This document shows, in pieces, positions 5,922-64,000 of a stretch of DNA of 64,000 nucleotides; the first letter of the stretch is position 1; each line of letters opens with the position of its first letter. This DNA is from Macrolepiota albuminosa. Lineage: Eukaryota; Basidiomycota; Agaricomycetes; Agaricales; Agaricaceae. The stretch covers positions 1,563,205 to 1,627,204 of the forward strand of contig JAMWFC010000051.1 of assembly GCA_027475525.1 (NCBI GenBank). The letters are read 5' to 3'. The position numbers and the translations under genes are program-made. Below the pieces are notes generated by a model. It saw only the letters and a program-made list of their open reading frames with translations, did no database searches and had not been told where the DNA came from.

Positions 5922-8900
5922 ATGGCCTCGGATGGCCTCGAGCGGCTCATTAATCAATGCAAAAGCAATGGTAGGTTTTGTTCTCTGTAACTGAACCGCT
6001 TGCATGATGAAGTTTCCGTTTTCTAGATGTTGATATTAAAGTTGACGCGCTCTCGAAACTGCAAGCCGCTTTTGAAGATGGAATAGAGGTGATGAAAGCC
6101 TCTTTTAACAGACAGCAGGATGTTATGAACTTGAACACGAATAGATTAACGATTTAGACGGTTTACTCGGCGTCTTGAAGACATGTTTGCGAATACCTAA
6201 CCAACATCTGACCACCGCCACGCTGGCTGCCTTGCCTCCCCTGCTCCCTCTCCTTTTTATACGTTCAGTGGGTTCTTTGCAAGCATCAAGCACCCAGCCT
6301 CGATCTCCGTCGTCTTCGACTTCCTCCGTAAGCCCCTCTGGCGTCGTAGATTTGGCGACACTACGTCAAGTACTCAATACATTCCTACCTGCTGGTGGTG
6401 TAATTGACAGATTGGGAGACAAGGAGAAAGCTCAGCTCAAGGCACGAGAATGTTTGGTGATCATGGGAGGACTGGCCTTTCGAACAGGAAGCGGAAGCGT
6501 GATGTCGTCAAAATTGAAAGACAAGGGTCCTGAAACGCCTCTCATGATATTCGAGCGATTCTTAAAAGAAGGAGGGTTAGCAAGCAAGGTTTGGAAAGTT
6601 CGTGAACAGGTATGATAATGGCGAGGATGAAAGTCGAGCATATTACTGACAAAATGAACAGTCTATCCTGACGTTGGTACATATCAGACGCGTCCACCAT
6701 CAATTTCCAATCCGTCCCTACCTCTCCTTACTGGTTGATTGCCTGGAAGACACTGATGCACACGTTCGGGATTGCGCCCGACAATCAGTCATCGAGCTTT
6801 TTACAGGTCCAGGCGTAACCGATGGTGCACGCGCCGATCTGAAAAAAGAATTGACAAAAAAAGGCGTTCGGAAAACCATTGCTGAAGGAGTCCTATCGAA
6901 ACTTCTTGGAACATCAACCAGCAGTAATACCCACAATCAAGAAGGTTCAGAGAGTCCAAAAGAGTATATACCCCCGAGTCTTATGCTTCAGGGTCGAAGA
7001 CCTATGGCAGGAGGTCAAACAGGAGTTCCCCGGACCGTTAGTCAGGGGAGCATGAAGGACGTATCACGACCTAGCAGTCGTGCAGCAACGAGCCCTCCAT
7101 TGACAGGCCCATCTGTTCCTCAAACCCCTTCGAACGAATCCGCCGACATTCAACCTGTATATGTATGTTTCTTAGAAAATTATCCTCTTATTGCGATTTA
7201 GCTTCTTCTTAGATTGCATCCATAAGAGACTTGGAAAACGAGTTTTCTGCGATGTCAAAACCATTCGAGGCAAGTCCAATCTATGCTTTTTACAGGTATA
7301 TGTAAATATTTGTACAGGGGAAGGAAACAGAGCATAACTGGGCTGCCCGAGAGCAGGCAATTATCCGAGTACGTGGGATGTTGAAGGGAGATGTGCATCT
7401 ACGTTATCTGGACACGTTCCTAATTTCACTTAAAGATGGATTTATACAATGGTCACTGAAGGCGGTATGTCTTCGCCCATGTTTTGTCTCATGACGATAT
7501 GAATATTTCTTTCGCAGCTCGTCAGTCTTCGGACAACTGTCTCAGCCAATACTTCGTTGCTCTACGGCGAACTGGCAGCAGCTCTCGGATCGTCAATGGA
7601 TCCGTTCTGCGAGACTCTGTTGACCAACCTCCTAAAGATGGCGGGCCTTACGAAGAAAATTACTGCCCAACAATCTCAAGCATCAGTGACAGAGATTATC
7701 ACATACACCTCAGCCCAACCTCGCATCCTTCTTCCACTCCTATGGAATACTTTACAAGAGAAGACCGTGCAAACCCGAGCATTCGTTGTTGACCACATAA
7801 AGCAATATCTCAATGTTCATGGTCTCCGCTCCAAACACGCAATTGAGGGTACAATTGGACTCGAGCTACTTGAAAAATCATTCAAAAAAGCCTTGAATGA
7901 TGCCAATCCAGCTGTACGAGATAAAGCGCGTGCCTCGTTTTGGGACTTGAAAAATCATTCAAAAAAGCCTTGAATGATGCCAATCCAGCTGTACGAGATA
8001 AAGCGCGTGCCTCGTTTTGGGTTTCGAAGACGTCTGGCCTGAGCAAGGTTTGGCAATTCTCGAAAGTCTTGATCCCAATGCTCGCAAGCAGGTTGAAAAA
8101 CTCTGTCCCAAACCCGAACAACTAACAAATTTACCGCCGACTACTCCGAAGGTGAAGAAATCACTAGCTGCCACCATTGCGGCCAGTAGGGCCAAAGCAA
8201 AAGCCATTGCAACAGCGCCCCCGACCCTTCGCCATCAAGCGACATCTGCTTCTCATGCACCTTCTGTACAACGTCCCGCTTTTCCAGTGACTTCCCCTAG
8301 GTCATCAGTAGTTCGACCGTCATCCCCTCTCACAGCATCTGTTTCTCCTCCCGCTCCAACAACACCAGGAAGGCCCCGCAATATATCAGGAACAAAGTCT
8401 CGTTCCGTGAGCAGCACAGGTGTGCCGTCTGGCCATTCGCACTCATCGTCTAGTGGTTCCAATGATTCTGGAATAGCTGCCTCTCCTCCCTCGCCCAGTG
8501 AAATCCGGCGCAGAGCCTCGTCTCCCCTTGCTGCAAGCAGCACATCTATGAGCCGACCCGCTACTGTGCATAAAGCGCTACAATCATCGCCGCCTTCGTC
8601 TAGACACGTCTCCCCTAGCGCTCGCAACGCCAACGGTGCCGGACGCACAGTTGCGGTGCCCATACCTGCTAGACGCTCGAGGCTTTCTCTTCAGATGACA
8701 CAAGATGACGACGAGTCCCTCGTAAAAGCGCAATTCGTGCCCATTCCTGATAGTGATTCCGATGGGGATCAATCTATCAATCTCATGTCGTTCTCCGCTC
8801 CTTTTGAGGCCTATCCTCCCATGACACCGCAAACAAGGACCGTTAATAATAATTCAGCGTCGCCCCGTTCCACACACTCCAAACCGACTGTTGTTTCTAA

Positions 8901-10511: not shown

Positions 10512-10652
10512 ATGCCTCTGTAGAACCCTCGATACCCACTCGTTACCTAAGAAGTTCTCCGTGTATAGTGAATGACTGTTGCCCTTTCACGTCGAAATAA
10601 ATAGTTGCATTGCAGAGTTTCTATAACATACATTGGTTGGGGTAATACATGC

Positions 10653-11756: not shown

Positions 11757-11824
11757 TTGGTGCACACGTGACTTGCGCTTATAATTTAAACTGTTGGTGG
11801 ACGCGTTTACTCGGCTTGTCTGTC
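11757..11824. promoter_or_regulatory. 68-bp bidirectional spacer between PCP1 and TRS20 starts
   Basis: The two start codons face away from each other across 68 bp, so 5' UTRs and promoter elements must be shared or must overlap the neighbouring coding sequence. No TATA box is visible. Confidence 0.6.
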
Positions 11825-27530: not shown

Positions 27531-29338
27531 TCACACTCCATCTTCAATCGCAGTGACGGCCCCACCAACCAACCATTCACCGAAGTACACACAATCCCGT
27601 GGGTTTACAGGGCCCCCATTTTTGCAGAACTCGAACGAGGGACATTGACTGCACGGTGCTTCAGAAGCCCCGAACACAGGGCATTCCTGCCTGATCGCCC
27701 GATAAACAAACCCACCACCACCCGTGTCTAATTCGTCCCAAGCATGGAACGGAGAGGGCGATCGCTTTAGCGACTTTGACCTTTTACTGTAGCGACCTCT
27801 CTCATCGTCTGGGGAACTATCGCTAGAAGAAGAGTATCTCGACTTTCTGGATTTCTGTTTTTTTGACTTTTTCTTTCGGCTGGAAGTATCTTCATCACTA
27901 CTTGAGGAAATCTCGGAGTCGCTTCGGCTTCTTTTTGATTTCCTCTTCTTATGACGAGCGTTATCGTCGGACTCTTCATCACTATCCGAGAGGTCTTTCG
28001 CACGTCTCTTCCTGGACTTCTTTCGGGAATGATCGTCGGACGATTCCTCATCGTCGCTATGAGAGAGAGGTCTTTCGCACGTCTCTTCCTGGACTTCTTT
28101 CGGGAATGATCGTCGGACGATTCCTCATCGTCGCTATGAGAGATCTCTTGCGTTTCTTACTGCTCCTCTCACCGTCATCTCCTCGTTTTCGCCCCTTCCT
28201 TGAAGACCGTTCAACTTCTTTGTCGGAGTCTTCATCACGTAAGGCATTGTGCCACATACTTGTTCCAAATGATGGTAGCTACGACAGACAGACAACTTGT
28301 AATTGAGCGAATGGATTCTCACAAAGTTAGTGACTCACTCGTTCAATTTCACCGTCAAGAACGAGAACATTCAACAACATGTCAACATGTTCGACATTCA
28401 GTTCTGTTTCCGTAAGACGCGCTCTCCTTAGAGAATTGCGGATTTGCTCTGCACTCGGGTAATCCGGCGAGTTCGATAATGCATATAGTGGTCCTTCCAC
28501 CCCATCACCGCGACGCTTGGGAAAACTCTGTATTGCAGTAGAAACTCAGATGAGTGATCAAGATGGATAATGACAACACTGACGATGTCACGGATGAACT
28601 TCAAACACGCGTCACTGAGATGCTTGATAAATTCAGTGTCGAGCTCGTTGTCGGTATACCATGGACCACCGGTCAAGGCTACCGATGGTTCTAAGTTTTC
28701 TAGCATGTATATCTTACGCGTTGGATGCTAAAAAGAACGAGGTTGGCAATGAGACCATCTAAACAAAGAGAAGACTGACTTGAACAGAAGGAACGCGCTT
28801 AATAAGCCGTTTCTGTGTCAAAGTTTTGAGGCATCGATCAATGACGGTCTGGTGAAGGTTGGTCTTCGCCTTCAAGTGTTTCGTCCAAATTCCTGGAATT
28901 AACATCACTTTTGTGCCATGAGAAATATGATACGCATCGATGGATACCTTCATTCCGAGAAGCCTTAATGTGCCCGAGTACCAGATTTTCCTCGCCGGTG
29001 AGATCCTTAGTACTAAACACCCAAGTGAATCAGAGTTGATATATATGTGATAACAATGACACACGCTGCAAGTTCATTCTTTGTCACTGCACGGAAAGAC
29101 ACGGATCCCTTAGAATCCACCAAAGATTTAAACAACCCGACACCAAGTAGAAAGTTGAGAGCATTTTGGCGTTTAGATGCATCCGGCACGATCGCTTCTG
29201 CTTGTTTATTGCTTAATTCCTTTTCATAGGGGTGAGATACAAGATGCAGGACAGTTATAGGCAGAAGACCTTGTTGGATGCGGCGAGAGCAGCCTGGTGG
29301 AGTTTACTTTCGAGTTCATTCGGCGGTCGTTTACTCAT
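27531..29338 (-). CDS. RPC34: RNA polymerase III subunit Rpc34/RPC6
   Basis: Winged-helix subunit of the Rpc82-34-31 subcomplex that opens Pol III promoters. The ATG at 29338 gives MSKRPPNELESKLHQAALAA. The winged helices read RQNALNFLLGVGLFKSLVDS, then KDLTGEENLVLGHIKASRNE, GIWTKHLKAKTNLHQTVIDR and CLKTLTQKRLIKRVPSV. TGGPWYTDNELDTEFIKHLS and a third winged helix follow. A long Lys/Arg/Ser/Asp-rich linker (about 27770-28230) then leads to an iron-sulfur-type tail: CSQCPSFEFCKNGG...CVYFGEWL, like the 4Fe-4S end of human RPC6. The linker holds a 77-bp tandem duplication (27988-28141). With one copy removed the acidic HSDDEESSDD frame still needs one added base at the right-hand border. Convergent with the PPTase, 53 bp between stops. 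Confidence 0.92.
27988..28141. repeat. 77-bp perfect tandem duplication (RPC34 linker)
   Basis: Period-77 identity runs from 27988 to 28143, that is two 77-bp copies plus two chance matches. It lies in low-complexity SR/SD-coding DNA and breaks the frame. Confidence 0.95.
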
Positions 29339-31367: not shown

Positions 31368-34284
31368 ATGCTGCCTCTTTGTAGATTATTGCCCCACGCT
31401 CTACGGCGGTCCATCAGGAGCCACCGCATTCCCGGTTCTCTTGCTTCAACGCACTATTCTCAGTTGGCATCACAAGACCTTTCTCAGCCGCTCTCCGCCC
31501 TCTCCCATTGTGGTCAGTCGGCTCTCATGCTCATGCTCAGCGTGGATCTTCTGGCTCCAATTGTTTCTTCTAGCTCCATATCCCAGCCGCACCCATACCT
31601 GTGGTTCACTCACTGCTCGAGACGAGGGTGCTCGTGTCGTCTTAACAGGATGGATCCTTCCTGAGCGGTGATCATCATTCTCCCTCCAATCCCCATTTAT
31701 CTTATTGATGTTGATGTCGCTTCTTTCCTCCATCAAGCAAGGGGAAAAGTGTTTCATTCTATCCACTCAAGGATTCTTATGGTACCACACAACTCATTGT
31801 TGATCATTCAGAGGGAACACCAGATTTGTCAGCGCTTGCCAAGGTATCTGTGGAATCCACAGTGTTGATTGAAGGCACCGTCAGTTTGCGTCCGCCCAAT
31901 GCCCGACGGCCCGTTAGTGAAGCCGTTCATCAGGAAGCGTGCTATCATTAACCAGTTTCCTGCCCGAAGGGACCCACGGGCGATATAGACGTGCAAGTGG
32001 AAAAATTTACTGTTTTGAATACTGCAGGAAGTCTCCCATTTTTGCCATCCAATCCCCACAATGTGGTAAGAATTCATTTCACCGTCAAAGCCAATGAAAA
32101 TTCACTCTACAGAAAGGCAAATGATGACGTTCGCGCACGCTATCGTTATCTCGACCTCCGCCGAACGGTTCTGTCCGAGAACATTAAGAAACGAAGCAAG
32201 GTGGCCCAGATCGTTCGTGAGGTTCTGCACCAGAGAGGAATGAACATTTTCTCTTCGCCTTTGCATGTTGCTCATTTATATTCCTATATCAGATTTCGTA
32301 GAAGTAGAGACTCCAGTACTCCTCAGGTCTTCCCCCGAAGGCGCAAGAGAATTTCTTGTACCAACGCGGATCTCTAAAACTGAAGACTGCAATGAACACC
32401 ACAATCCGACATTTTATGCATTGCAGCAATCACCGCAACAACCTAAACAGCTGCTAATCTGTTCAGGCGGTGTTGATCGATACTTTCAACTGGCCAAATG
32501 TTTCCGGGACGAAGATGGGCGCAAAGACCGACAGCCTGAGTTCACTCAGATTGATATGGAGATGGCTTTTGTCTCGTGGGGTCTTCACGAATCTCGAGAC
32601 TTGCAATCTTGCGCTTGGCGGATCGGTGGCAGCGAGATTCGCGATATGGTTGAGACACTCATGCAGCAGATATGGCAAAAGGTTAAGGGTACATCACTCC
32701 CAACCAGTTTTGAAGTTATGACCTATCATGATGCAATGACACGTGTAAACCTTGATTTTTTAAGGGTACATCACTCCCAACCAGTTTTGAAGTTATGACC
32801 TATCATGATGCAATGACACGTGTAAACCTTGATTTTCCTCCACCATACTGAAGTAGTGACCATTTATGCTTAGTTTGGTTCGGATAAACCTGACACTCGC
32901 TTTAATCTTGAGGTTTGTTGTAGTTCCACATGTGCATTGACCAGAACTGATGAGTTTCGGATAAACCTGACACTCGCTTTAATCTTGAGGTTTGTTGTAG
33001 TTCCACATGTGCATTGACCAGAACTGATGAGTATCTAGATTCGGACATTACTCATCTCCTTCCGGAAAGACAACGCAGCTTATTTCAGGACAACAGGGAA
33101 ATCCTCGAAATCATAGCAGTCCGTAAAACCAGCGAAGGCCAGTTTCTTGGTGCTTCTCGAGTGTGTCAACCTGACTCTGCTACTGTAAGAGCGCGAATTT
33201 CCAAAGGGGCCGAATTTGACTTATCAACGAAACCACAGGAACGTATCACACTCACCAATCGGACCTTGACTTCTTGGTTGACTAATGCTACTATCCATGC
33301 ATCATTAAAAGAACTAGCGCCTGAAGAAATTTTACACATCAACGAAAAACTCCAAGTTACCCCCGGTGATGACGTGTGGCTTGCTCGTCGATCACGAATA
33401 CCAAAAGTGATTTGCTCTTGAGCTCGTGTTGTTCCAAATCATTCTAATCGACGCTTCTCAGGGGGGCTTTACCGCCCTCGGTGGGGTCAGACTTCGACTT
33501 TCTGAGATCGCGCAAGCCCGGAGTGAGTCCCAGTCAACACGCATATGAGGGTTCGCGCTCACCGTGCATTGTTTCAGATGACTTTGTCATTACTACAGAT
33601 CCTCATTTCCTTTGGATTACAGAGTTCCCTCTTTTCACGCAAGCTGATTCCGACAAGGATTTTCTAGCCAAAGGTCGGTGGAGTAGTACACATCATCCGT
33701 TTACTGCTCCCATGTGGCAGGATATCGATGCAATGTATCGTGGTGATGTTGAATCTGTAAGTGTTACTGCTTTCGTTTAAGCTCCTATACGTACTTGGAT
33801 TCTAGGTACGCGGGCAGCACTATGATCTTGTCCTGAACGGTGTAGAGATCGGCGGAGGCTCTGTTCGTGTACACGATGCCATCATGCAAGACTTCATCTT
33901 CACCCATATCCTCAAGGTCAGGTGTCATGGACTCTAGTTGAGTATAATTCTGACCTCATCTGGACAGCTGGATGAGGCAGAGAAGGAACCCTTCCGACAT
34001 CTCCTTCATGCATTGCAATGCGGTGCACCGCCGCATGGTGGCATTGCGCTTGGTATGTTTACGCTTCTTTTTTACACGATCCGTGTCGGGATCCTATTTT
34101 TATGGCATCTTCATCCACAGGTTTTGACCGAATGATGGCCATGCTCTGTAACACGCAATCCATACGCGATGTGATCGCGTTCCCAAAAACAGCTACTGGG
34201 ACTGACCTTCTCTTCAGAAGCCCTGCGCCCATAAGCAACGAAGTGCTATTCCAGTATGGTATTCAGCCGCGCACGACTACGTGA
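31368..34284 (+). CDS. MSD1: Mitochondrial aspartyl-tRNA synthetase
   Basis: Class II bacterial-type AspRS imported into mitochondria. The ATG at 31368 opens an Arg-rich presequence ([20 protein letters not shown]), spliced (gtggtc...ttctag) to [20 protein letters not shown]. The OB-fold domain is followed by [40 protein letters not shown], and motif 2 in [33 protein letters not shown], the bacterial-type insertion ([15 protein letters not shown]...), [11 protein letters not shown] and motif 3 (HGGIALG split by an intron from [11 protein letters not shown]) complete it. The tail holds [20 protein letters not shown]. Two 77-bp duplications (32683-32836 and 32879-33032) span exon-intron borders; after collapse YHDAMTR joins [13 protein letters not shown] in frame. 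All class II motifs are intact. Confidence 0.93.
32683..32836. repeat. 77-bp perfect tandem duplication (AspRS, first)
   Basis: Identical copies at 32683-32759 and 32760-32836, covering the end of an exon and the start of its intron, so the splice donor appears twice. Confidence 0.97.
32879..33032. repeat. 77-bp perfect tandem duplication (AspRS, second)
   Basis: Identical copies at 32879-32955 and 32956-33032. Only 42 bp separate it from the previous duplication. It duplicates most of one exon ([12 protein letters not shown]) and its intron. Confidence 0.97.
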
Positions 34285-42469: not shown

Positions 42470-44560
42470 ATGGCTCCCCATCCTGTCATTGAATACACGT
42501 CCGAGGCATCCTGGGCCATGGTTTGTTGTTTCAGTATTTCTTTACAGCAGATAATGACTGTTGGCAGGTTGAAGACAAGTTCTCCCCATACGCGAAGGAA
42601 ACTTTGGCCAAACTTATCACCTTCCTTGAGGTTGCTCATGACGAACTTTCTTGAGACATGATGTACTCACGGTGAATTTCAGGAGGAAATCCTTCCAGCC
42701 TCCAAGCTGGCTCATGCTCAACTTCCTATTGACCCTGTACAACGGTGGAAGACTGTCATTCCAGTCATTCAGGAACTCAAGGAGAAGGCGAAGAAACTTG
42801 GTCTTTGGAACCTTTTCCTTAGCAAAGCTCACTACCCAGAATACGGTGTTCCCCTCACTAATTTGGAAGTGAGTCAATCCAAGTCTCGTAACGTTCCGTC
42901 TTGACTCTTTCTGACTTTCTGTAGTATGCAGTGATGGCAGAGATTCTCGGCCGTGGCTCCCATATCGCTTCGGAAGTTGTAAACTGTTCAGCTCCAGACA
43001 CGGGTAACATGGGTGCGCATGAATTTCATGTCTTGAAAAATGTAATACGACGGCTTGCCCAGAGGTGCTCGCAAAATATGGCTCCCCTGAGCAACAGAAG
43101 AAATGGCTTATTCCCCTGCTCAACGGCGAGATTCGTTCTGCGTTCGCTATGACAGAAAAGAATGGTACGACGAGAGAACACTTCTTATTCCCCTGCTCAA
43201 CGGCGAGATTCGTTCTGCGTTCGCTATGACAGAAAAGAATGGTACGACGAGAGAACACTTGTTTCACCGCGATTCTTACTTCCTCAGTCGCATCTTCCGA
43301 CGCTACGAACATAAAGACGTCCATCAGGCAAGAAGGCAATGAGATTGTGATTAATGGTCACAAATGGTTAAAAACTGTCCGACTTTCATGATCGAACCTT
43401 CGTCGCTAAAAGTTCATTCAACAGGTGGATCAGCGGTGCTGCCGACCCACGGACCAAAGTCCATATCGTCATGGGCAAGAGCGACCCGGGAAACAAGAGC
43501 ACGCACAAACAGCAGAGTGTTGTGCTTGTGCCTGCCGACACCCCAGGCGTGAAAGTTATTCGACCCATGCAAGTGTTTGGTTATGATGATGCGCCCGAAG
43601 GTCATTGTGAAGTCGTTTATGACAATGTTCGTGTTCCTCTTGGGAACTTGGTGTTGGGTTGGGGACGAGGTTTTGAAATCATTCAAGGGCGTCTTGGGTA
43701 TGCAAGGCCCTGGGTTTCAGTTTGTTTTGTATCAATAATTAACGTTTGCTTTAGGCCGGGGCGGATACATCATTGTATGCGATCTATTGGAGTAGCACAG
43801 GGGGCCCTGGACCTCATGCTTCAACGTGTAACTGATCCTGGACGCAAGACCTTTGGAAAGTATCTTTACGAACATGGTTTGTACTCATTTAAACTATCAG
43901 TGGATGGCAGCTGAAATTATTATACAATGTAGGTTCTGTTGTTCAGGACATCGCAAAGTCACGGGCAGAGATCGAGTCTGCACGTCTCCTGGTTCTCAGC
44001 GCTGCTTTACAGGTATGTCGTATGTTTTTATGTACAAGGGCAATGATCTAGTTTGCTGATCATTATTCTTCCCCCATAGATTGACAAATATCAGGCCAAA
44101 GGTGCGCTGAAGGAGATTGGCATTGCCAAAGTTCGTGAACATATTAGTCTACAAGCGTTACGTTCTGATGTTTACTGTCTAGTTTGTTGTTCCTTCCATG
44201 GCTTTAACTGTTGTGGATCGGGCAATTCAAGCATTTGGTGCTGAGGGAGTATCACAAGACGCAGAACTTGCCCAGAGATGGGCAGGGTTACGAACTCTCC
44301 GTATTGCGGACGTATGTGTCTTGTTTTCTTTCAGTACCCTAGTGTGATGCTCATGTGTGGGTATTTCTCAGGGGCCGGATGCTGTTCGTACATGATACAT
44401 CCTAATCGGCATTACTTACTTACTGGTCTCATAGGTTCACATCCAACAGGTTGGACAGAGGGAGCTCAGGCGTGCATCACGCCTGGTACAGAAGACAGCG
44501 GAGCGTAAGAAGAAAGAACAGGTTCTTTTCGAGAAAGCTGGTCTTAAGAGTCATCTGTGA
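42470..44560 (+). CDS. Acyl-CoA dehydrogenase (ACAD10/11-like)
   Basis: FAD-dependent acyl-CoA dehydrogenase for beta-oxidation of fatty acids. The ATG at 42470 gives [16 protein letters not shown], joined by introns to [20 protein letters not shown] and [20 protein letters not shown]. The domain order is complete: [57 protein letters not shown] (FAD loop); [76 protein letters not shown]; and [20 protein letters not shown]. It ends AGLKSHL. There is no N-terminal kinase or cytochrome b5 fusion. A 77-bp duplication (43107-43260) doubles the [13 protein letters not shown] exon end and the following intron donor. At least eight introns. Confidence 0.93.
43107..43260. repeat. 77-bp perfect tandem duplication (acyl-CoA dehydrogenase)
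   Basis: Identical copies at 43107-43183 and 43184-43260. Each holds the end of an exon and the first bases of its intron. Confidence 0.97.
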
Positions 44561-45733: not shown

Positions 45734-47186
45734 ATGTACGGCCTCAAGAGACTACAAGAGCTCGTTCTTGGTGTAGAATCCGATCCAAAGCTCCTTTGTT
45801 CTCAACTACATGCTGCTGCAATCCCAGTGACGGATGCTGACTGCCGTAACTGCTCGGAACCATGCGAAGAAGGTAAGTCAAGAGGCTTTATCTGATAACG
45901 ACGGCTCATCATATCTCTACCACATACGTGGTTACAATATAGGCCATGACTCGTATCCCGGACGCTTCACTATTGACACAGAGTCGCCGTTGTTAGGTAC
46001 AATCAAGCCTTACCGCCGCCAGGTACGTGTCTGTGGCTGACACGTTGGCTCCCGCAACTGACTTTTTTTTTTGCCAAGGTCGTTATTTCTACTGGAAAGA
46101 CTGACTGGGATAGGGAGGTGACCGAGACGAGAGGTAGCCTCGCAGCTCTGCTCGCCGGTGCCAAGAACCTTGCCAATCTGCCCATAGCGGAACCCACGCC
46201 GCCTGTGACGCCATCACCCAAGGCAGTGCGCACCCCTGCTGGTGTCTTCCGCTCCTCCGACTCGACAAAGGTGTCCATACTAAACGGCAGCCACAACACC
46301 ATAGCAGACGATATCGAGCAGGAGACTGTTCTCGTATTTCCCGATTACACTGTCGTCACTAATGTTCCGCGAACGAGAGAGGGGGCTCGTGGGCTGTGGG
46401 AATGGGCCGTAGATCCGGCTATTGAGCGTGGAAGCGCGATTGTCGAGAAAATGCCATTCAAGACTTGGGTTCTCCCATACTCGTGTGTGATATTGCTGTG
46501 TCAGTTCAGTTTCGCGCACCCTGCTTTCGATGACTCAAATGTCCTTGCAATGTCCAGGTTCTCATAAGAAGAGGGATAATCGTTGTGCGCTCACTGCTCC
46601 GAAGCTTGAACACGGTGACTGACATTCATCCCTTGTTATGCGTTTTTGGGCGCCCGTTCTGATATATACACTGCCAGCTTTTATCCATTCATTACAGGAG
46701 AATGGGTGGGCGGCCGACACACAACTTGAATGCCATTGTCTCATGGGAACGCCGTTAGAAGACATTCATTACAGGAGAATGGGTGGGCGGCCGACACACA
46801 ACTTGAATGCCATTGTCTCATGGGAACGCCGTTAGAAGATATACAAGGCACCTGTGAAGAGAGGCAGGAGACTATTGCCAAGGAGCTCAAGAGCAGCGCT
46901 GCGGAGAAACGAGCTCTCATTCTCAAAACATCACACATAACAGGCCATAAATTCGCTGGTAATTGTATAGTGTGTAGTCCGCATAAAAATCTCGCGCCAT
47001 GGATTTTAACTCTGTTTCCAGATATATACCCCTCAAGGATCCGGCGTGTGGTACGGTCGTGTGTCGCCTCACGAAGTAGAGTCTATCGTGATTAATACTA
47101 TCATACACGGGCGCGTGTTGGCGCCTCTCCTCCGCGGTGGTCTTAATATATCGCGGCCAGGCTGCAAATCTCTTAATGATTGGTGA
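45734..47186 (+). CDS. Sucrase/ferredoxin-like protein (Apd1/Aim32-type thioredoxin-like ferredoxin)
   Basis: Thioredoxin-like [2Fe-2S] protein of the Suc_Fer family that includes yeast Apd1 and Aim32. The ATG at 45734 gives MYGLKRLQELVLGVESDPKL. The N-terminal part has DCRNCSEPCEEGHDSYPGRF and LLGTIKPYRRQVVISTGKTD. A variable Pro/Ser linker follows, then VLVFPDYTVVTNVPRTREGA. The C-terminal domain holds ILLCSHKKRDNRCALTAPKL, LQENGWAADTQLECHCLMGT and the conserved SHITGHKFAGN, whose HxxxH pair matches the histidine cluster ligands known for Apd1. It ends VWYGRVSPHEVE, LLRGGLNISRPGCKSLNDW, TGA at 47184-47186. A 77-bp duplication (46686-46839) breaks the frame; collapsing it exactly restores LEDIQGTCEERQ. 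The LINE sits 54 bp downstream of the stop. Confidence 0.9.
46686..46839. repeat. 77-bp perfect tandem duplication (Suc/Fer gene)
   Basis: Identical copies at 46686-46762 and 46763-46839, inside coding sequence. Exact removal of one copy restores the frame. Confidence 0.97.
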
Positions 47187-47239
47187 CTTTAGACATGGCA
47201 GATGGTATTTATTATTTATATCTACTCTACATTACACTT

Positions 47240-52800: not shown

Positions 52801-54880
52801 AGAGATACCTGTGTCTTGACGAGAACAGACCAAGCTGGGCGAAAGTGGCAGATGCAATAATTGGGGGAAAGATTGCAAAAAAGTGGAACGTGAAGGACCA
52901 TAAAGCTTTTGTAAATACTTTCTTACAAAACATGGATGTAGATGTGAGAGAAAGGGAAGATGGTCTCCCCCTAACGCTGCAGCGAATGCTGAAATCAGCT
53001 CGAAAACACAACGTAACATTTCAGTCGTTGGCACTAGATACAAACTTGAAGGAAAAAATGCCCATATGGTTCCACTTGGGCCTAAGGGACGAAAAAAATA
53101 TCAGATGGAACAACGAGACAGCAGAGTGCCTGAGAGATGTCCATAATGTAGTGTCAGTTGGGGACATGATGGTAGTGGCAAACAACACTGACACGGAGAA
53201 AAACACCCGCCATAAACAGAGGAAAAACTGTGCGTGTATTCCCTGTAAGGAGTACAGAAAAGCCGGGTGCTCCAACCCGCACAAATGTGGAGATTATGCA
53301 AGGGATCTTTTAGGAAAGCTTAAAGTGAGGTGGAACCCTATGAAATTATCGTACGACAGGTCACTTACTGCAGAGGAGCGAGCACTACAGCAAGATGAAA
53401 GTAGCATAGCCTTTAACCCGGAGATAAAAATACACAGCAGCCTGAGAGAGGGGTTTCGAGTCTTTTCAGAGGGCAAAGATAATAGATCAACAGATGACGC
53501 AGACTATGCAAGGACCGTGACCGCACCTCTGGACATGATAATTGCATATACTGATGGCTCTTGCCAAAAAAACGGATCATTGGAAGCTGTCGCAGGTGCG
53601 GGCGTGTGGTTTGGACAAAATGATGTGAGAAATGTAGCAATGAGATTGCCGATCGACCTGCCTCAAACAAACAATGCTGGAGAGGCCGTGGCAATATTGG
53701 CCGCAGTGAGAAGAGTCCCAGACGACTGTGCAATCCTTATCCGAAGTGACTCACAAATAACAATTGATTGTATTACTAAACATCTAGAAAGCAGGGAAGA
53801 CAGTGGTTGGATAGAAGTTGCGAATAAACAAATATTAAAGGCCTTAGTAGCCGAATTAAGACGACGCAAAGGTGCGACATTTATAGAAAAAGTAAAAGGA
53901 CATGCTGGTATTGAAGGAAATGAGGGGGCCGATAAACTAGCTGGTGACGGGGCCAGCAAGGAGCAGCCAGACGAGATCGATTTATCGATCCCCCCGGATT
54001 ACAACGTATCAGGTGTAAAACTAGCGCAGGCCACACAATCACTAATATACAAAGGCTTGATGGAACGTATGGAGCCACCATATAGAAGAGGAACCTTAAC
54101 GCATCTAGATATGACCCGCTGGGCGGTGCATACCCTGAATGGAGATGCTCCGAGTGATGAACGAATCTGGCAGTCATTAAGAAGTAAAACTCTATCAAAA
54201 GAGTTCAGGAACTTTGCCTGGAAAACAATGCACAATGCATTTAAAGTGGGGGATTACTGGCAACATATACCACAATACGAACCACGAGCTCTATGCCCCT
54301 GCTGCCGTGTGGAGGACTCAATGGCGCACATCTTGTCAGAATGCCCGTACACTGGGCAAAAAGCAGCATGGCAACTGGCCAAGCGCATTCATACTAAGAG
54401 AGGTATTGACCTCGAGCCTCCGTCCCTAGGGGAGCAACTGGGCTGCGCCCTGATAACGAGAAATGGGGAGTCTAACAGAGATGCACAAAGTGCCACACGC
54501 TTCTCAACAATTGTTATTTCCGAAACAGCCCAACGAGAAATGGGGAGTCTAACAGAGATGCACAAAGTGCCACACGCTTCTCAACAATTGTTATTTCCGA
54601 AACAGCCCACGTAATTTGGAAGACTAGGTGCGAGTGGCGTATTAGGCATGAGTCAGACCCAGACAAGGTACCCTCTGATGAAGAGGTTACGAACAAGGTT
54701 AAAGCGGCAATCGCACGGAGAATAAAACTTGATTGCCTAGCGACTGATGAGCGTAGATACGGTAGGAAAGCCCTGGAGGCCAGGGTTGTAAGGAATACGT
54801 GGAAGTACTTCCTACCAGGAAATAGATCCCCAAGTAAGTCGTGGAGAGTTGCAACCGAGGTTTTAGTGGGTATTGGCTGA
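49884..54880 (+). CDS. LINE ORF2: AP endonuclease, reverse transcriptase, RNase H
   Basis: Replication protein of the element. The first in-frame ATG is at 49884 (MHNPIEGYDIPQETN). The APE endonuclease (about 50010-50760) shows VASLNMKGGG, AVQETHLSEE, NTYAPNDHN, VLGDMNVVED, RIDRIYI and SDHRLVIM. The reverse transcriptase (about 51460-52480) has GKAAGLDGIPHEVWKEL, NYRPITILNTDYKIMTKVLA, HPSQAGFMKNRRIEDQTE, LDQEKAYDKI, RGVRQGDPISCLLFNIAIE and the catalytic FADD. A Cys-rich region lies near 53225-53300. The RNase H (about 53530-53950) has YTDGSCQKNG, NNAGEAVAIL, RSDSQ and KGHAGIEGNEGADKLAG, so all four acidic residues and the His are present. A terminal CPCC-x8-H-x4-C finger is near 54293-54345. 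A 77-bp duplication (54455-54608) shifts the frame; exact collapse gives SETAHVIWKTRCEWRIRHES and a stop at 54878-54880. Confidence 0.93.
54455..54608. repeat. 77-bp perfect tandem duplication (LINE ORF2)
   Basis: Identical copies at 54455-54531 and 54532-54608. Exact collapse restores ORF2. Confidence 0.97.
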
Positions 54881-55033
54881 GTGCCCGAGTCCCACACAGC
54901 GTGCGTAAAGGCATTTCCTCCGGCGTGGCTCCCGACTTTAAATTGACCTACTGTAATGCGTGAGTTTCTCACATACCCATGGTCCCAGAGGTTGGCTATA
55001 CGCGAACTGTCTGGAACCAATAGTGGTACCACG

Positions 55034-55062
<29 letters not shown>
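55034..55062 (+). other. Poly(A) tract at the LINE 3' end
   Basis: 29 uninterrupted As, followed at once by the right target-site duplication. Supports target-primed reverse transcription of a polyadenylated RNA. Confidence 0.95.
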
Positions 55063-55067
<5 letters not shown>

Positions 55068-55075
55068 CATTTGTC
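55061..55075. repeat. Right target-site duplication of the LINE
   Basis: Second copy of the 15-mer at 47240-47254; the flanking host sequence continues at 55076. Confidence 0.93.
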
Positions 55076-55412
55076 AAACGAGCTTTTTTCGATTAGAACA
55101 AATGTAGTGTATACTCGTCGTAGTACATGAGCATTGAGTACATACGGTATTAATTGCACGATTGCATGATGAAGGGTCTGTAAATAAGTCCATGAAAAAA
55201 AGTACAAGATGCAGTAACATGAAGCAAGTCTGTAAATCTGTCGTTACCTCGATACCTAACAGTGACAAGAAAGAGTTGAAACCAAAGCCCGAATCGGTAA
55301 TGAGAATGTCCCTCGTTACTCTTCATTGTGGCCATCCGCTTAGTGCGAACAAAAGAAGGAGCGCATATGCTCCTGCAGCCACGACCCGATCCCAAGAAAA
55401 AAAAAGGTATCG
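55076..55412. other. Intergenic, SCH9 3' side
   Basis: 337 bp of host DNA between the LINE and the SCH9 stop; probably its 3' UTR. An open frame on the plus strand (55162-55698) is a shadow of SCH9 in its second half. Confidence 0.5.
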
Positions 55413-57996
55413 TCACGGCATGTCATCGTCAAGAGAGCTAAAGGCCAGCCCTTTCCGCCGGGCGTTGGCATATCGGCCGACCGGCTTGCCAATATCATCA
55501 AACTCGTCATCCGTAGTGGGCATCACGATTTCCTCGTCCTCGACAGCATCTTCGTCATCGACCTGCTGCTTCAAATGGCTCGGTGGTGCGACTACACTCT
55601 CACCACCCGAGTATGTGAATCCCCTAAAATTCGCTTGCACGCTGTTCGTCAATGGGCTTCCCGAGAATTCGGGACTTTTCTTTTTTGGCCTGATCTGAAT
55701 ACCCTGTGTGCGGCCGTTCGGTCCATTGAGAGCATACGGCCCCAGGGGCCCCTTGCCTTCTCGCTCGCTTCCCAAGGGACCATTCGGGGTATGCACAAGA
55801 CCGGTATTGCCAATCGATTGGGAGACCCAGTTTTCTGATGGATCGTCTTCATCGAGAACCATATCCGCAATGCCGACATCCCGGATATCGGCCGACGTAA
55901 ACTCTGGGTCAAAGTTGTTCGTAGACTCGTCCGACTCGACGACAGGCTTGAACGGCGGTGTTACCTGTTTGAGCGCGAGGGCCTTCCAGTCGATCGATTT
56001 GAAAAAGGGGTGGTCCTTGAGCTCGTTCGCGTCGCGGTTTGCTCCCAGGCGATGATTCGGATTCCGGTTGAGAAGCTGCATGTTATAGTTAGAACATTGA
56101 TCGAAAACAAGTCAAAAAAACGAAGAAGCAGTGTTAATTTAAAAAAAAAAACATGTTTTTGACTCACCCCTTTTACAAATTGTTTTCCGTCTTCGTTGAT
56201 AACACCTTTCGGAAAACGGATCTTTCCGAAGCAGATATTTTTGTACATTTGCTGAGTGTCCTCTGCGTAAAAGGGGCTCCATCCACAGCACATTTCAAAG
56301 AGTAGGACGCCTAGTGACCAAAAGTCGACAATTTTGGAATAACCGTGCTCGGAGAGGAGTATTTCTGGCGCGAGGTACTCGGTGGTGCCGCAAAATGTCG
56401 TTGTCAACTCATCGGACCGTAGATCGGCCTTTGACAGTCCGAAATCACAAAGAGCTACATGGCCCGTGGCATCGAGAAGGATGTTCTCTGGTTTGAGGTC
56501 GCTGTGCGACAAGTAAGCCCATGTACGTTATATGGTAGGGCAATGAGACACACCGGTAGACGATGTCGAATTTGTGTAGATGTTCGAGTGCGAGAACCAG
56601 CTCTGCGATGTAGAACCGTGCGCGTTCTTCACTGAAGCGCGTCTCACGTTGGAGATGCCAAAATAGCTCGCCGCCGCTCTTGAAGTCTGTGACGAGGTAG
56701 AGGTCCGAGTCGGTCTGGAAGCTAAACTTGAGGCCGACGAGGAACGGCGAGTCTAGTGAGCGCTGGAGAATCTTGCGTTCTCCTATTGTGTGGGCGACTT
56801 CCTTCTTTGCGACGATCTCCTTTTTAGAGAGGACTTTCATTGCGTATATGCGCTTGGTGTCGCGCTTTCGGACCTGGAAAACCTTGCCAAAGGTGCCTCG
56901 GCCGATGAGCTTGAGAAACTCGAAATCCCGCGGGGTAAGAGGACGTTTTGTCTGCGATAAGACGTTGATTAATAGGCGGGGAGAACCTGAAACGTAACAG
57001 CCGATAACGGACTTTGTATTGTTCAAACGTTATCTGAAGGCGCATCTCGCCAGTGACAGGCTCGTTCTCGAACGGTTTTAGCCTGGAAAAGGAAATGCTG
57101 AGAGGATTGAGGGGGATGGTGGGAGGGACCTACTTGTACCACTGGTCGACGGTGTGGTCGTGTATGAGGACGGGTTTGACTTGGACAGTTCCGAGGAAAC
57201 CCTGGTCCTGGACAGAGCGGTCATAGACGTTGAAAGTGATGAGAGAATGCTCAGATGTGACGTCGCTAGAGTTGGGATGAGCGATAAGAGATATGGGGTG
57301 GGTGGGGAGATTGGCTTACAAGGAGACCTCGTGTTTCCAGACGGGGTTGTGGGGGGAGAGACGAGCAAAAAGGCCGGTTGAGATTGCGGCAGCGGATTTG
57401 GCAGAGGAGGAAGAGGCATTGCTGAGGTTGCGTTCGCGACGAGAGGGGTCGAGGGCAGCAGCCTTGGAGCCGATTGCACCGAGGGCGGAGATTGCGTTGG
57501 AGGAGGAGGTGCGGGAGAGATTGGTAGGGGTGCCCCTGACCTCCTTGTCGGACTCTGAGGTGGGATCTCTGGAGACGAATTCGTTTTTTTCAAACTGGAC
57601 GACGACATAGGGGCGTGCAGAAGGGGCGGGGACAGCGAGGCCGCGGGCCTGGATGAGCTTGACGTGGATCTGGCCGCGGGAAGAGGCGACGTGTGGAGTG
57701 GAAGTGGCGGTGTGGTCGGACGAGGCGGAGACGGGGGGGGCCTTGTGGGATCTGCGGGCGGGAGGCTGCTGCATGGTGAAGTCGGGTGCATGGAGGGTCG
57801 GGCCAAGCGAGGGGGTGGCCAGGGGCGTGATGTCGGCGTTGGCCGAGTGGTGGAGGAGAGGATGGCAGGTGGGCGTGGGCGGGCGCGGGGCGTCGAAGGG
57901 ATTGGGACGGGGCTTGGGCGTGAGCTGGTCCATGGGCGGCGGCCACAGCTTGATGATGACGCGGTGCAGAACAAGACTGAAGCCGGCGCGGTCCAT
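55413..57996 (-). CDS. SCH9: AGC protein kinase Sch9 with N-terminal C2 domain
   Basis: Nutrient-sensing S6K/Akt-like kinase downstream of TORC1. The start is taken at 57996 (MDRAGFSLVLHRV); 57932 (MDQLTPKPRPNPFDAP) is also possible. After a Pro-rich N-terminus comes a C2 domain (GQIHVKLIQARGLAVP; PYVVVQFEKNEFVS; NPVWKHEVSL). The kinase domain begins PLTPRDFEFLKLIGRGTFGK, with the Gly loop, the AMKVLSKKEI lysine, DLYLVTDFKSGGELFWHLQR, the catalytic loop YR|DLKPENILLD across an intron, CDFGLSKADL, the T-loop TTTFCGTTEYLAPEIL and NRNPNHRLGANRDANELKDH. The C-tail has PPFKPVVESDESTNNFDPEF and hydrophobic motif FRGFTYSGGES. A C2-kinase-AGC tail layout separates Sch9 from Ypk1. All catalytic residues are present. 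Confidence 0.93.
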
Positions 57997-58080
57997 CGCC
58001 TCCACACAAATCAATTCTTTTCTTTTGTACCCGTTTCTTATCTCACGTCCCTTTTCCAACAGAAACACCCCTGTCACTGA
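57997..58080. promoter_or_regulatory. 84-bp spacer between Tim17-like stop and SCH9 start
   Basis: Both genes are on the minus strand. 84 bp must hold the 3' end of one and the 5' UTR of the other, unless the SCH9 start is the downstream Met at 57932. Confidence 0.5.
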
Positions 58081-58616
58081 CTAATTTGAGCGACTTTCCC
58101 CCGCTACCGCCAACAGTCTCTCCCTGCCCCACCGCAGCCCCTTCACTGTGCTTCCAACCCCCACCCCCGCAACGGCTGCCCGCCCTGTCGTCCGCCATCC
58201 TGCCCGGTCTGCGTCCTGTCAGCCCAGCACACCCAGTCGCGAGTCTACGTACATACGCAGCCAAACACCCCAGCCACCCCCAGTCCCGCCCCAATCTCCT
58301 TCATCCCACCCCACCCCATCCGCTCCATGCCCTCCTCAATCCCCACCCACCCCACCGCCACACTCGTCAGCTTCGTCGCGTCCGTCGCCGCCCCCTTCAG
58401 TCCCCCGTACAGCACCTTGTAGTTTTTCGTCTTGTTGTAGAAATACCATCCCTGCACCGTCGTCGGCGCCCGGTGCGCATTTTCTGCAAGGAACCGCAGC
58501 GACGCGCTCCGTGACCCCCGCACCAGCCCCATCATCGTTCCGACAACCAACGCTGCCCCTGGCACAAGATAGAAACGCGCCGGAATCTCAATGCGGATTG
58601 CCGTCTCGTCGGTCAT
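58081..58616 (-). CDS. Small membrane protein, Tim17/Tim22-family-like
   Basis: The ATG at 58616 gives MTDETAIRIEIPARFYLVPG. Gly/Ala-rich membrane helices follow (ALVVGTMMGLVRGSRSASLR; VAVGWVGIEEGMERMGWGG; EIGAGLGVAGVFGCVY), with a conserved-looking loop FLAENAHRAPTTVQGWYFYN. An intron of about 44 nt (gtacgt...gacgcag) near 58215-58260 extends the protein through RAGWRTTGRAAVAGVGVGST to a stop at 58081-58083. The GxxxG-like helices resemble the Tim17/22/23 superfamily, which includes the complex I assembly factor TIMMDC1, but I cannot assign a member. The DNA is clearly richer in GC than its surroundings, so many overlapping open frames appear on the other strand. Confidence 0.65.
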
Positions 58617-59025
58617 CAAGTCGTCCAATCTGTCAGTCACTCATCCAAATCTAATCATGTGACCTCCGAACCATGCGGCCTTCCCCACCTCTAGCCGACG
58701 CGTTCCATTGCATTTAATGCTTTTACCCAACGCCTACCATGCCCAACAGCGAAATTTGCGCTTATCCAAATCTCCGTGATCGCTTCTCTGCTTCCTCTCA
58801 CTGATGTCATTCTCCCATCGCCAAAAGCGTCCCATTCCCTCCTATCGAGAAAAAACAACTCAAAAAGTCTCAGACCACAAGGTTACTCCGGTCATTTCTC
58901 TGGCAAAAGGAGCTCAAGAAGCGATCACCTGCTCATTGTGCCTAATGTCTTTTAAGCATTCGGTAGCGTCGCGTGGCACCATAGAAATGCAATTCATGTA
59001 CCCTACCCGAATAGACGAGCAACGT
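58617..59025. other. Intergenic between DPH1 stop and Tim17-like start
   Basis: 409 bp. An ORF on the plus strand (58804-59049) has no recognisable content and would overlap the DPH1 end. Nothing else seen. Confidence 0.5.
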
Positions 59026-60807
59026 TCAAAATTCCCCTGTCGTCCGTGAGATGGCCCATGCACTCCCGCCGGTATAGAAGTCCATTGGGTAAACCCCATC
59101 CCCCCGTCCTTCGTCTTCCATCCAGCTGTCAGTTTTACCGACGGCGACAGCTGTTTCATAAGGGCTAAGCAGTGGGCGGTCGAAAGCGTAACCCCAGTCT
59201 ATTGAAAGACGAGGGCACGATGTCTGAACAAAAGTCGATATGTACGGGTTGAACAGCGCTAGCTTTGCCGGCGAAAGCTCAGATAATAGAATCTGAATGT
59301 ACGGAATCGGTGTCTTTGAGGCTTCTAGCTGGTTGGTTATTGCCTGATGCACAGTCAGTGCATGAACGTTTTCCTTCCATTCAAATGTACCTGTAGCTGC
59401 TTAAAGTTTCCTTGTCGCCCGAGCGTCCCGAGTATCACACCCCACAGCGGTGGCGAGTCATGCGAAAAGGCCGCGATGCTCCTGCGAGCGACCTGCACGG
59501 CATCATCACGAACCCTTTGCATCGCGCGGTGGTCATACCGTTCCCGCGTCAGCTTCTTGGAATAAGGATCGTAACGAAATGCAGGAACAGTTGGATTGGC
59601 GATCATAATTGACTCTAAATGGAAACGCCCATCGCCAAGATATCTATTCCATGCTCGTATGTAGTGGCGTTGTTATCTCAAGAAGATAAGACGTACATCA
59701 ATGCATCGACGTCGTTGAGGCGCGGCGCTGTGCATCCGAGGATCTCGCCCGGTGAAAGAGGTTTTGATCTCGGAATCGTCGCTTCGTACTTCCCTGACCA
59801 AAGCTTTTCTTCTTGTTCCTCTGCGGCGTTGGAAGAATCAAGAAGACGAGAAGGATCGATGACGAATGATTCGCCTGTGAGGTCTTCTTTCAGACGCTGG
59901 AGGGCAGCCACGAACTGGATTGTCGATACCAGCGCTAGCCGCGTAGGGTCGTACGAATGTGATGGCCCTCGTTCGTCATTGTCACTGGTCGTCGGTCCTT
60001 GTATTCGGAGATGCGAGGTAGATCCTATCTTCGTGCCCGCTGGAATCAGACGATCAGTCTCTTCCGAATTCAGCAGATTTTCGTGAAATTGTTGTCGGTC
60101 ACTGGGAAAGTTGAGCCGGACGGTTTGAGCGAGGTGTGTAGAATCAATTGCGATCTCGACAAAGACGTAGAGGGTCTTGATAGAGGTCTGGTCCATTGGT
60201 ACTATTGTACCCTCGTTCAGCTTTGGGTGCCAAAGGAGAGAGCAGAGTAGACACCTAGACAACTGTGGCCGTAGTGCACCAACATGTCGCATCCCAATGC
60301 AACAGCAGTATAATCGTCAATGCAGCAAGCACCATATGTGACATCACCCATGATTACTGTCAAAGCATTCGTAAATCTTTTTCAGTATAATCGTCAATGC
60401 AGCAAGCACCATATGTGACATCACCCATGATTACTGTCAAAGCATTCGTAAATCTTTTTGTTTCGCAGGTCAGATCTGAGAACTTGAACACGATCAACAA
60501 TTTACCTCTCAATTATATCTGCGATGGTGCAGGCAAACATCTGCAACCCCTCTGGCATCTGTAGCGCTACCATAGTAGCATTGTTTTTCCGAATCTGATG
60601 TATAGTTTTGTGGATCTCGAACGAATAGTTCGACGGCAGTTGTGCGACGGCAGCATTGAGCTGATCATCTTCGAGTATATCTTGAGGGATCTGGTGACCG
60701 ATAACACCAGAGACACCCGGCTTGGAAGGAGTCGCGCTCTTGCTGCCAACGAAGCGTTTCCGAGGTTTCAGAGTCTTGGGTCTGGCCGCTGTGGCTTCCT
60801 CGGGCAT
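59026..60807 (-). CDS. DPH1: Diphthamide synthase subunit Dph1
   Basis: Radical-SAM-like iron-sulfur subunit of the Dph1-Dph2 complex, which transfers the aminocarboxypropyl group of SAM to a His of elongation factor 2. The ATG at 60807 gives [60 protein letters not shown] and [20 protein letters not shown] are diagnostic. After introns come [20 protein letters not shown] with the first cluster Cys, [75 protein letters not shown], and [20 protein letters not shown]. The last segment holds [33 protein letters not shown], and [13 protein letters not shown] 77-bp duplication (60306-60459) doubles the [14 protein letters not shown] exon start. Confidence 0.93.
60306..60459. repeat. 77-bp perfect tandem duplication (DPH1)
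   Basis: Identical copies at 60306-60382 and 60383-60459. Each holds an intron 3' end and the first exon bases after it. Confidence 0.97.
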
Positions 60808-61028
60808 GGGGTCAAGCGGTAGTAGAAAAGAGTTCTTTTTTATATATAGCCGGCCCGGACACGTGAGGGGTTTCGAGACGAAGCACGGCTCATTGTGCGG
60901 TGCGTCACCTTTCTGTTCTCCTTCTCTCAGCTTAGGCCTACATGCTCTGACGCTCCCTTTTTCAACAACCTCACGTATTTCCTTTGGTTCTCTGATATAG
61001 AAGGTATCATTTGACTTGAACGACGATA
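60808..61028. promoter_or_regulatory. Divergent promoter region DPH1/NPC1
   Basis: 221 bp between start codons. TATATATA at 60841-60848 is 34 bp upstream of the DPH1 ATG and 180 bp upstream of the NPC1 ATG used here; it reads as a TATA box in both directions, so its owner is unclear. Confidence 0.45.
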
Positions 61029-64000
61029 ATGGCCAAGAAGGGCAATAGAACATGGGCCACTGGTCGGTGTGCCATGCGGGACACCTGTGGCAGCAAAGGT
61101 TTCTTCGGAAAGCCTTTACCTTGTCCATATGATGGATCACCGGCAGAGGTGTGTGCGCATGATACCATTCCGTAGTCGCTGGTTGTTTCTTACCTTGTCG
61201 TAGCCTGATGACACAGCCGGCAGAGGTGTGTGCGCATGATACCATTCCGTAGTCGCTGGTTGTTTCTTACCTTGTCGTAGCCTGATGACACAGCCGTGCC
61301 TTGTTAGTGCAAACGTGTGGATCTGAATTCGCCAATGGACCCGTTTGCTGCACAAAGGAGCAAGTAGAAACACTCCGCGACAACTTTAACCAAGTCGAGC
61401 CCCTTATTTCAGCTTGTCCAGCTTGTCGGAACAACTTCCGTTCCTTCTTCTGTTCATTTACCTGTTCTCCCGAGCAAGGCTCGTTCGTCAATATCACTTC
61501 TACGCAGCAGACGAACACAGGGAAGATTGCTGTAAAGTCAGTAGACTTCCATGTTGAAGAACAGTTTGGCGAGGGCTTCTATAATAGCTGCAAGGATGTC
61601 CAAGTCGGGACCACTAATGGTTATGCTATGGAGCTGATTGGAGGGGGCGCGTCAGATTACCATGGTTTCTTCAAGTTTCTGGGTGACGAGAAACCAATTG
61701 GTAGCCCTTTTCAGATCGACTTTCCAACTACGACCCCCTCAGGAATTACTCCCCTAAACATCACACCACGAGGATGCGCCGATAACGACCTTGCGAGCCG
61801 TTGCACATGTGTCGATTGTCCTTCGATATGTCCTGCCCTACCACCCGTTACGGCACCGAATGCAGGGCCGACCTGCCACGTCGGTGCATTCTCTTGCCTC
61901 ACCTTCGTCCTTCTCGTTGGATATACTTTGGCAGTCCTAGCCTCCCTCTCTGGATGCATCATCTCGACTTCTATACGTAAGCGTCGTGAGAGATCATATG
62001 AACGTGTCGCATTGTCAGAGGACGCCACGTCCCCTAGAATACAGACTCGCGGTCTCGTTGGTCAAAGTTCTCTGGCTCATTACCTCGATGAAGATTCGAT
62101 GGGAACACAGTCTGGGTCTCGAAACCTCGGTCGAGGTGCAACTCTATTAGACCCTGATGAAACCCTTCAGCCTCGCCAATACCCCCTAAATACTTTCCTA
62201 CGTCATGGCTTCTATAGACTAGGCCTCTTTGCTGCAACATCTCCGTGGCTCACGTTTTCTGTCGTCTTCCTCCTGATTGGACTCCTCAACATTGGATGGC
62301 AGAAATTTGAGATCGAGACGGACCCCGTGCGGTTGTGGGTAGCACCTACTTCGGAGAGCAAGTTACAGAAGGAGTTCTTTGATGAGAATTTCGGGCCTTT
62401 CTATCGCACGGAACAGATCTTCGTGACTTCTGCTCCCGCACTCGACGAGCAAGCGAGCAATTTAATTTCGGGCCTTTCTATCGCACGGAACAGATCTTCG
62501 TGACTTCTGCTCCCGCACTCGACGAGCAAGCGAGCAATTTTCGCTCGCAGCAACAAACACGCCTGTATTGTCTTGGGAACGTCTCAAATACTGGTTTAAA
62601 GTTGAAAATGACATCGTCAATCTGCGCTCACCAAGCGGGTACCGTCTCACAGATGTTTGTTTCAAACCCGCTGGTCCTAGAGGCGCGTGTGTTGTGCAAT
62701 CCATCGCTGCATGGTTCGGAAACGATCTTGACTCTTATGACGAAGACACATGGGCGGAGCAACTAGACGAATGTGCCCGATCACCAGTTGAATGCCTTCC
62801 AGACTTCCAACAACCTCTCGCTCCTCATTTCGTGTTGGGAGGTGTTCCAAGTGACGATAGCGGACGCCACATGTACGTTGATGCTGAGGCATTCGTAGTC
62901 ACTTACGTGGTGTCAGATTCTTTGGACACCGAGGTCCAGGCGAAAGCTATGGAGTGGGAACAGACTCTTCGGACGTATCTTACAGATCTGAGCCAGCGAT
63001 CTGAAGAGGATGCTGGCTTGCATATCGCTTTCTCGACAGGTGTATCGCTTGAGGAAGAGATCAACAAAAGCACTAACACCGATGTTAAAGTTGTTGTCCT
63101 GTCGTACTTGGCAATGTTCTTATATGTCTCATTGGCTCTCGGAGCCGGCACTGTTGTTCGCGAGGAACAAGGTGTTCTTGCTTCTCTTGCCAATTGGGTA
63201 TCCAACTTTTCCGGACTGTTCAAGCCCTCTCGTGTGACCTCTTCATCTGTATCTGTAGATTCTCGGACAGTGCCCCACATCTTCCCCCGTCTTCCTCGCA
63301 GTCTTTTCACAGGATCAAAGTTCGCACTCGGCCTGTTTGGCATCTCTCTCGTCATTCTCTCTGTTTCCTCATCTGTCGGGTTCTTCTCTTTGATGGGCGT
63401 CAAAGTGACTTTGATCATCGCAGAGGTCATTCCATTTTTGGTCCTTGCAGTGGGCGTTGACAACGTCTTCATCCTCGTGCATGAGCTCGATCGTCAAAAC
63501 TTTCTCCATGGCCCCAACGCGGCGGTCCCTGCTTCACAGGGTGGTTTGACCAGTCCGATGTCACCGACTCTTTCATATCGTTCTCCGTACGCGTCGTCTG
63601 TCCGCGAAGACATCGATACAGTGTCTATGCCGCAGTACTTGCCCGCTGAAGAACGCGTAGCTCGCACCCTTGCCAAGATGGGCCCATCTATTCTCTTGAG
63701 CACAATCACGGAAACCGTTGCCTTTTCTCTCGGTGCTCTTGTACCTATGCCCGCTGTGCGAAATTTCGCGCTCTATGCGGCAGGAAGTGTGTTTTTGAAT
63801 GCGATTCTTCAAGTGACGGTCTTCATTAGTGCTTTGCTATTGGACTTGAGACGATTCGAAGCGAACCGCGTTGATTGCTTCCCATGCGTTAGACTACCCT
63901 CTCGGATTGCGCTCATGGAAGGGCCAGTCACCGGAAGTGGCTTGGGTAAAATCGGGCGCTTCATTCGCCGTTACTACGCACCATATTTGCTGAATCCCAC
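61029..64000 (+). CDS. NCR1: Niemann-Pick C1-type sterol transporter (5' part, runs off the window)
   Basis: Vacuolar/lysosomal RND-family membrane protein that moves sterols from Npc2 into the limiting membrane. The NPC1 N-terminal domain reads [29 protein letters not shown], then [40 protein letters not shown], and a Pro-rich hinge ([16 protein letters not shown]) before the first helix. Then [20 protein letters not shown], the lumenal domain ([51 protein letters not shown]), and the sterol-sensing domain with [40 protein letters not shown] and [20 protein letters not shown]. Two 77-bp duplications (61140-61293, 62387-62540) disturb it; after removal one base is missing at each right border. 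The ATG at 61029 yields no signal peptide, so the true first exon may lie upstream. Confidence 0.94.
61140..61293. repeat. 77-bp perfect tandem duplication (NPC1, first)
   Basis: Identical copies at 61140-61216 and 61217-61293, covering the exon end CCGGCAGAG and the whole following intron. Confidence 0.97.
62387..62540. repeat. 77-bp perfect tandem duplication (NPC1, second)
   Basis: Identical copies at 62387-62463 and 62464-62540, inside the exon that codes [20 protein letters not shown]. Confidence 0.97.

Follow-up and report, generated by a model that had tools for sequence, protein, structure and literature searches.

Exact 77-bp tandem duplications in a Macrolepiota albuminosa assembly as probable products of untrimmed contig overlaps

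Features of the locus

The window (the whole 64-kb stretch of DNA analysed, being C92:1,056,390-1,120,389 of an assembly of 100.1 Mb in 129 contigs) holds CLASP-like, aspartyl-tRNA synthetase (AspRS) and NPC1-like genes, a minus-strand frame matching Rpc34 farther along than the duplication in its upstream part, and a frame with a sucrase/ferredoxin-like match just below the curated cut-off. A LINE occupies positions 47846-55062, with a single long frame comprising endonuclease, reverse transcriptase and RNase H, a 500-amino-acid frame without a Pfam match ahead of it and a run of 29 A at 55034 behind. No RNA gene was found in the window with Rfam at gathering thresholds.

Distributed over these features are ten perfect tandem duplications, all with a period of 77, which were revealed by comparing base i with base i+77 (Table 1). 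The lengths of the matching runs are, in order of position, 77, 79, 77, 77, 77, 77, 78, 77, 80, and 77. No period from 20 to 399 other than 77 gave a run above the thresholds (at least 40 bases or, for periods below 40, at least 20 bases or the period's own length) anywhere in the 64-kb window, and Tandem Repeats Finder listed the same ten duplications and one A-run, with nothing more. The ten starts given in an earlier note on this DNA are correct to the base, and its claim of a constant length was likewise borne out, the exact cases sharing the single unit length of 77.

Table 1. Duplications and transposon copies; positions without a prefix are those of the window.
Feature	Position	Strand	Context
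Exact 77+77 duplication	7868..8021	none	CLASP-like gene; matching frame stops at the join
Exact 77+77 duplication, 2 bases of chance extension	27988..28143	none	Upstream part of minus-strand frame with Rpc34 match
Exact 77+77 duplication	32683..32836	none	In aspartyl-tRNA synthetase gene
Exact 77+77 duplication	32879..33032	none	196 bp past the 32683 duplication
Exact 77+77 duplication	43107..43260	none	Self-comparison and Tandem Repeats Finder
Exact 77+77 duplication	46686..46839	none	Overlaps frame with sucrase/ferredoxin-like match
Exact 77+77 duplication	54455..54609	none	In LINE; C65 copy has the unit once
Exact 77+77 duplication	60306..60459	none	Self-comparison and Tandem Repeats Finder
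Exact 77+77 duplication, 3 bases of chance extension	61140..61296	none	5' end of minus-strand frame 60502-61245; NPC1 frame directly after
Exact 77+77 duplication	62387..62540	none	NPC1-like gene; homologue P0001 single for the stretch
Imperfect 77-bp duplication	L080:158-313		1-base length difference in a G-run
Imperfect 77-bp duplication	L095:802-955		76/77
Imperfect 77-bp duplication	L088:734-887		74/77
Tc1-like transposon copies	L018:7816-9664 and L084-L095		DDE_3 match; HTH_Tnp_Tc3_2 below curated cut-off

Period 77 across the sampled assembly

The survey was extended to a non-random sample of 29 pieces amounting to 234,621 bp, or about 0.2% of the assembly, in which the flanks in C92 and the transposon copies were picked for their bearing on the question, and the other contigs were represented by eight 10-kb stretches outside C92, each taken at positions 50,001-60,000 (two more contigs chosen for this purpose proved too short). 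These eight stretches contain 0, 0, 3, 1, 6, 0, 1, and 1 exact period-77 duplications, respectively, so that the excess of period 77 expected by the earlier note in the rest of the assembly is present outside the window, with 12 exact cases in 80 kb and in five of the eight stretches. Across 164 kb, including the window and its two neighbours, 34 exact duplications were counted at period 77 and one at all other periods from 10 to 1000, namely a 60-bp repeat. In all 29 pieces, 51 exact cases fall on 77, the others being the one 60-bp repeat and two low-complexity runs (L082 and L063). With 10% mismatch allowed (90% identity) and periods of 60-95, 53 cases were recovered at 77 as against 2 summed over the other 35 periods. 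Duplications are found in at least nine contigs (C92, C20, C30, C40, C83, C110, C53, C108, and C122). The units were claimed to be unrelated to each other; words common to two of the 51 units reach at most 23 bases.

The run exceeds 77 by 0, 1, 2, 3, 4, and 5 bases in 27, 16, 5, 2, 0, and 1 of the 51 cases, against expectations of 28.7, 14.3, 5.4, 1.8, 0.6, and 0.2; the small excess can thus be put down to chance matching at the edges, which predicts the same distribution. Spacings between duplications (n = 37) vary from 181 to 20,120 bp with a median of 1170 bp. Bubbles due to a single SNP would be expected to leave a spacing of 155 (2k+1), and none of the 37 has this value. Three further duplications are imperfect (Table 1), one of them being situated at the right-hand parting point of two copies in C92. 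Given that a pure k-overlap must be exact, the imperfect units require a correction of each contig before joining to be assumed.

As a side observation, a 60-bp tandem repeat at L016:5915-6272 is both flanked and overlapped by two 77-bp duplications, as would be expected if a short-read graph tangles there.

Copies with a single unit

The whole window occurs base for base a second time in C92, at an offset of 506,815 bp, with all ten duplications at both places. It belongs to a block of about 320 kb lying at C92:~955,000-1,274,400 and C92:~1,461,900-1,781,300, whose left border falls between about 953,700 and 957,000 and whose right border lies near 1,274,400 at the first place. The two copies of the block differ by 1 mismatch over a comparison of 83,800 bp, which covered roughly one quarter of its length; being near-identical, they are not independent witnesses for the ten duplications, and the second place was therefore rejected as confirmation.

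Outside the block, the two places in C92 diverge in the manner of haplotypes, the aligned pieces being 94 to 100% identical and most of them above 98%. In these diverged flanks, all 13 exact duplications belong to copy 1 (24.8 kb), and copy 2 (25.0 kb) is free of them, having each of the 13 units once (13/13). The block of about 320 kb is probably a false large duplication, and the combination of a near-identical middle with haplotype-like flanks would fit a scaffold that contains both haplotypes and in which a single middle was used for the two of them. Since junction-free and junction-rich stretches stand in one contig, some mixing of sources is implied; the homologous stretches free of duplications suggest a composite assembly, built from source sequence of two types. 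In such a composite or patched assembly, the joins would be carried by the short-read graph parts only.

The LINE provides a comparison within repeated DNA. Its copy on C65 matches at 100% identity to the left and right of the unit at 54455 and has the 77-mer once, the 384 bp tested being identical but for the 77-bp copy, with no difference within about 150 bp of the unit. The copies on C43 and C95, at 67-77% identity, also hold the unit once, making three of three informative copies together with C65, while the rows for C88 and C45 cover one side only and are uninformative on the number of units.

A Tc1-like DNA transposon (about 1.6 kb without its duplications, with inverted ends of about 200 bp) is present in dozens of copies. 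Four exact 77-bp units lie inside the single element on C40, and among 12 other copies three have exact units (four in all), with one more carrying a 76/77 unit at the threshold of the test. Nine units from five source copies were each compared with 12 other copies, giving 108 comparisons, in which an offset of 1 or 2 bases was scored as single and the 74/77 unit in L088 was left out. The unit was single in 101 of the 108 comparisons over all nine units and in 45 of the 48 concerning the four units of C40. In the seven double comparisons, the copies have duplications of their own that overlap the place with a shift of about 5, 19, or 30 bp, and thus do not represent one inherited duplication. 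The duplications of different transposon copies nonetheless cluster at overlapping places.

Genes at the joins

The earlier note anticipated false frameshifts in genes, and conserved frames are indeed cut at the joins in the NPC1, AspRS, and CLASP genes. The CLASP_N match in the frame 7503-7970 reaches about 7955, the join being at 7945, and the next long frame starts from 8002. The AspRS homology continues into the first unit of the 32683 duplication, up to about 32756, with the open frame stopping at 32795; a search of the PDB with the frame after the AspRS duplications (32879) gave no match.

The NPC1-like gene, which has named relatives in Ceratobasidium (at 56% identity) and Moniliophthora (at 73%, covering a quarter of the query), among others, is read in one frame as far as the join, switches to another beyond it, and continues in a third from 62541. 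Residues 366-384, which are single in the homologue P0001, are encoded twice in the window, in two frames. The corresponding motif was found once in 47 of 88 homologues, was lacking in 41, and occurred twice in none. By a strict count, only 3 of the 59 homologues touching the join follow the two frames across it.

Origin of the duplications

Adjacent SPAdes sequences share k bases, and 77 is a usual largest k. The 77-base duplications are very probably an artefact of assembly and not biology, neighbours in a k = 77 graph having been concatenated untrimmed. On this reading, much of the assembly was built from contigs that overlap their neighbours by exactly 77 bases, in the way expected of successive pieces in a de Bruijn graph. 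Ordering these contigs and joining them end to end with the overlap kept would have left the 77-mer twice at each join. The assembler behind the joins may have been SPAdes at k = 77. What the data show is a unit of fixed length that is in excess wherever the assembly was sampled as a whole, is nearly always single where homologous DNA could be compared, and cuts conserved frames; that a de Bruijn graph lay behind it, and which tool and which step left the overlap in place, is what we infer. Untrimmed joins between contigs had been proposed in the earlier note, and this core of the proposal holds in an amended form: the 77-mer overlap was very probably left untrimmed, but not the whole assembly is affected and most breaks lie away from visible branch points.

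Counted against the artefact are the three imperfect units, the breaks off visible branches, an extra frame change in the NPC1-like gene, the small number of its homologues that follow two frames across the join, and the clustering in the transposon. With regard to the breaks, differences between the haplotypes occur no more than 10 bp beyond an edge in four of the 13 flank cases and at the final base of the second unit in one more, and the remaining eight lack any so close; heterozygous bubbles were therefore rejected as the general cause. Nor is an origin at repeat boundaries supported in the assembly, for nine of the ten window units have no place beyond the two identical ones in C92 among the best candidates of an assembly search. 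It is not supported at the LINE either, where the sequence around the unit is the same as in the C65 copy, yet the clustering of duplications in the transposon has to be set beside this. At breaks without a visible branch, the reads may hold variants that are absent from the assembly.

The position of most breaks away from visible branch points would also suit some other artefact with a fixed overlap of 77 bases, for instance a patching or gap-filling step in which flanks of a preset length are pasted in, and so would the mixing of sources seen as junction-free and junction-rich stretches within one contig. Such an explanation is nevertheless unlikely, given that the distances between duplications vary without showing a chunk size and that 77, a usual k, is a length one would hardly choose for a flank. 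It is very improbable that the duplications are real and were made by a cellular process copying exactly 77 bp. Their exactness in the assembly and their spread over several contigs could be accommodated, as could the few imperfect units, which resemble aged duplications, but the sizes have no spread, where natural duplications or minisatellites would vary in length and diverge. Moreover, the unit is single both in the LINE copy that is identical on either side and in every one of the homologous flank stretches, and the genes for NPC1, AspRS, and CLASP are cut, with no other locus of these stretches found in the assembly search beyond the second place in C92. A cellular mechanism would have had to generate thousands of exact 77-bp tandem duplications per genome, very recently and in one nuclear haplotype of a basidiomycete, which is more improbable still.

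Transposases produce duplications of fixed length, and target-site duplications of a departed transposon would accordingly share the constant size of the units. The copies abut with zero bases between them, however, leaving neither insert nor footprint, and several units lie inside one transposon copy. A length of 77 bp is, to our knowledge, far beyond that of any target-site duplication, and the chance that the units arose in this way is practically nil.

Relation to described artefacts and consequences

If the untrimmed 77-mer overlap is the correct reading, it has relatives among described artefacts. In PMC5368935, K is given in the part considered here as the overlap length at the edges of the graph, and k-linked errors at contig ends are described. 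The present case resembles these in that errors are tied to the k-mer length at contig ends, inside scaffolds too; it differs in that the errors of that part are spurious variants located a constant distance away from the ends of contigs, whereas here the overlap is kept as a tandem copy. According to an excerpt of PMC2864568, overlapping or allelic contigs set side by side bring about false duplications and extra exons, as is probably the case here, although those stem from haplotype differences and vary in size, in contrast to the constant 77 bp. The block of about 320 kb in C92 comes nearer to the false segmental duplications of that excerpt. False duplications in an assembly are likewise the subject of the passages of PMC9516828 on homotype and heterotype false duplications, where the cases are recognised by read depth, gaps, read pairs, and k-mers; here they were recognised from the sequence of the assembly alone. 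No description of tandem artefacts due to untrimmed overlaps came up in the literature covered by the search.

The duplications are of low interest in themselves and yet constitute an important warning for those annotating the assembly. As 77 is not a multiple of 3, each duplication in an exon shifts the frame, and gene models, pseudogene counts, and tandem-repeat surveys of the genome would be wrong. Should the small sample from other contigs be representative, with its 12 cases in 80 kb of which a single contig supplies half, a rough extrapolation yields on the order of 15,000 places in 100 Mb. Similar assemblies would be caught at little cost by a scan for a single exact tandem period that outnumbers all others.

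A last detail concerns the NPC1-like gene, where an extra frame change of one base lies at the end of the second unit (window 62464-62560). This step goes beyond the effect of the duplication itself and may stem from a local change in length, from divergence of the sequence there, or from an intron. Should other joins show length differences at their edges, the one-base change could be a trace of the branch at which the contig broke off in the graph.
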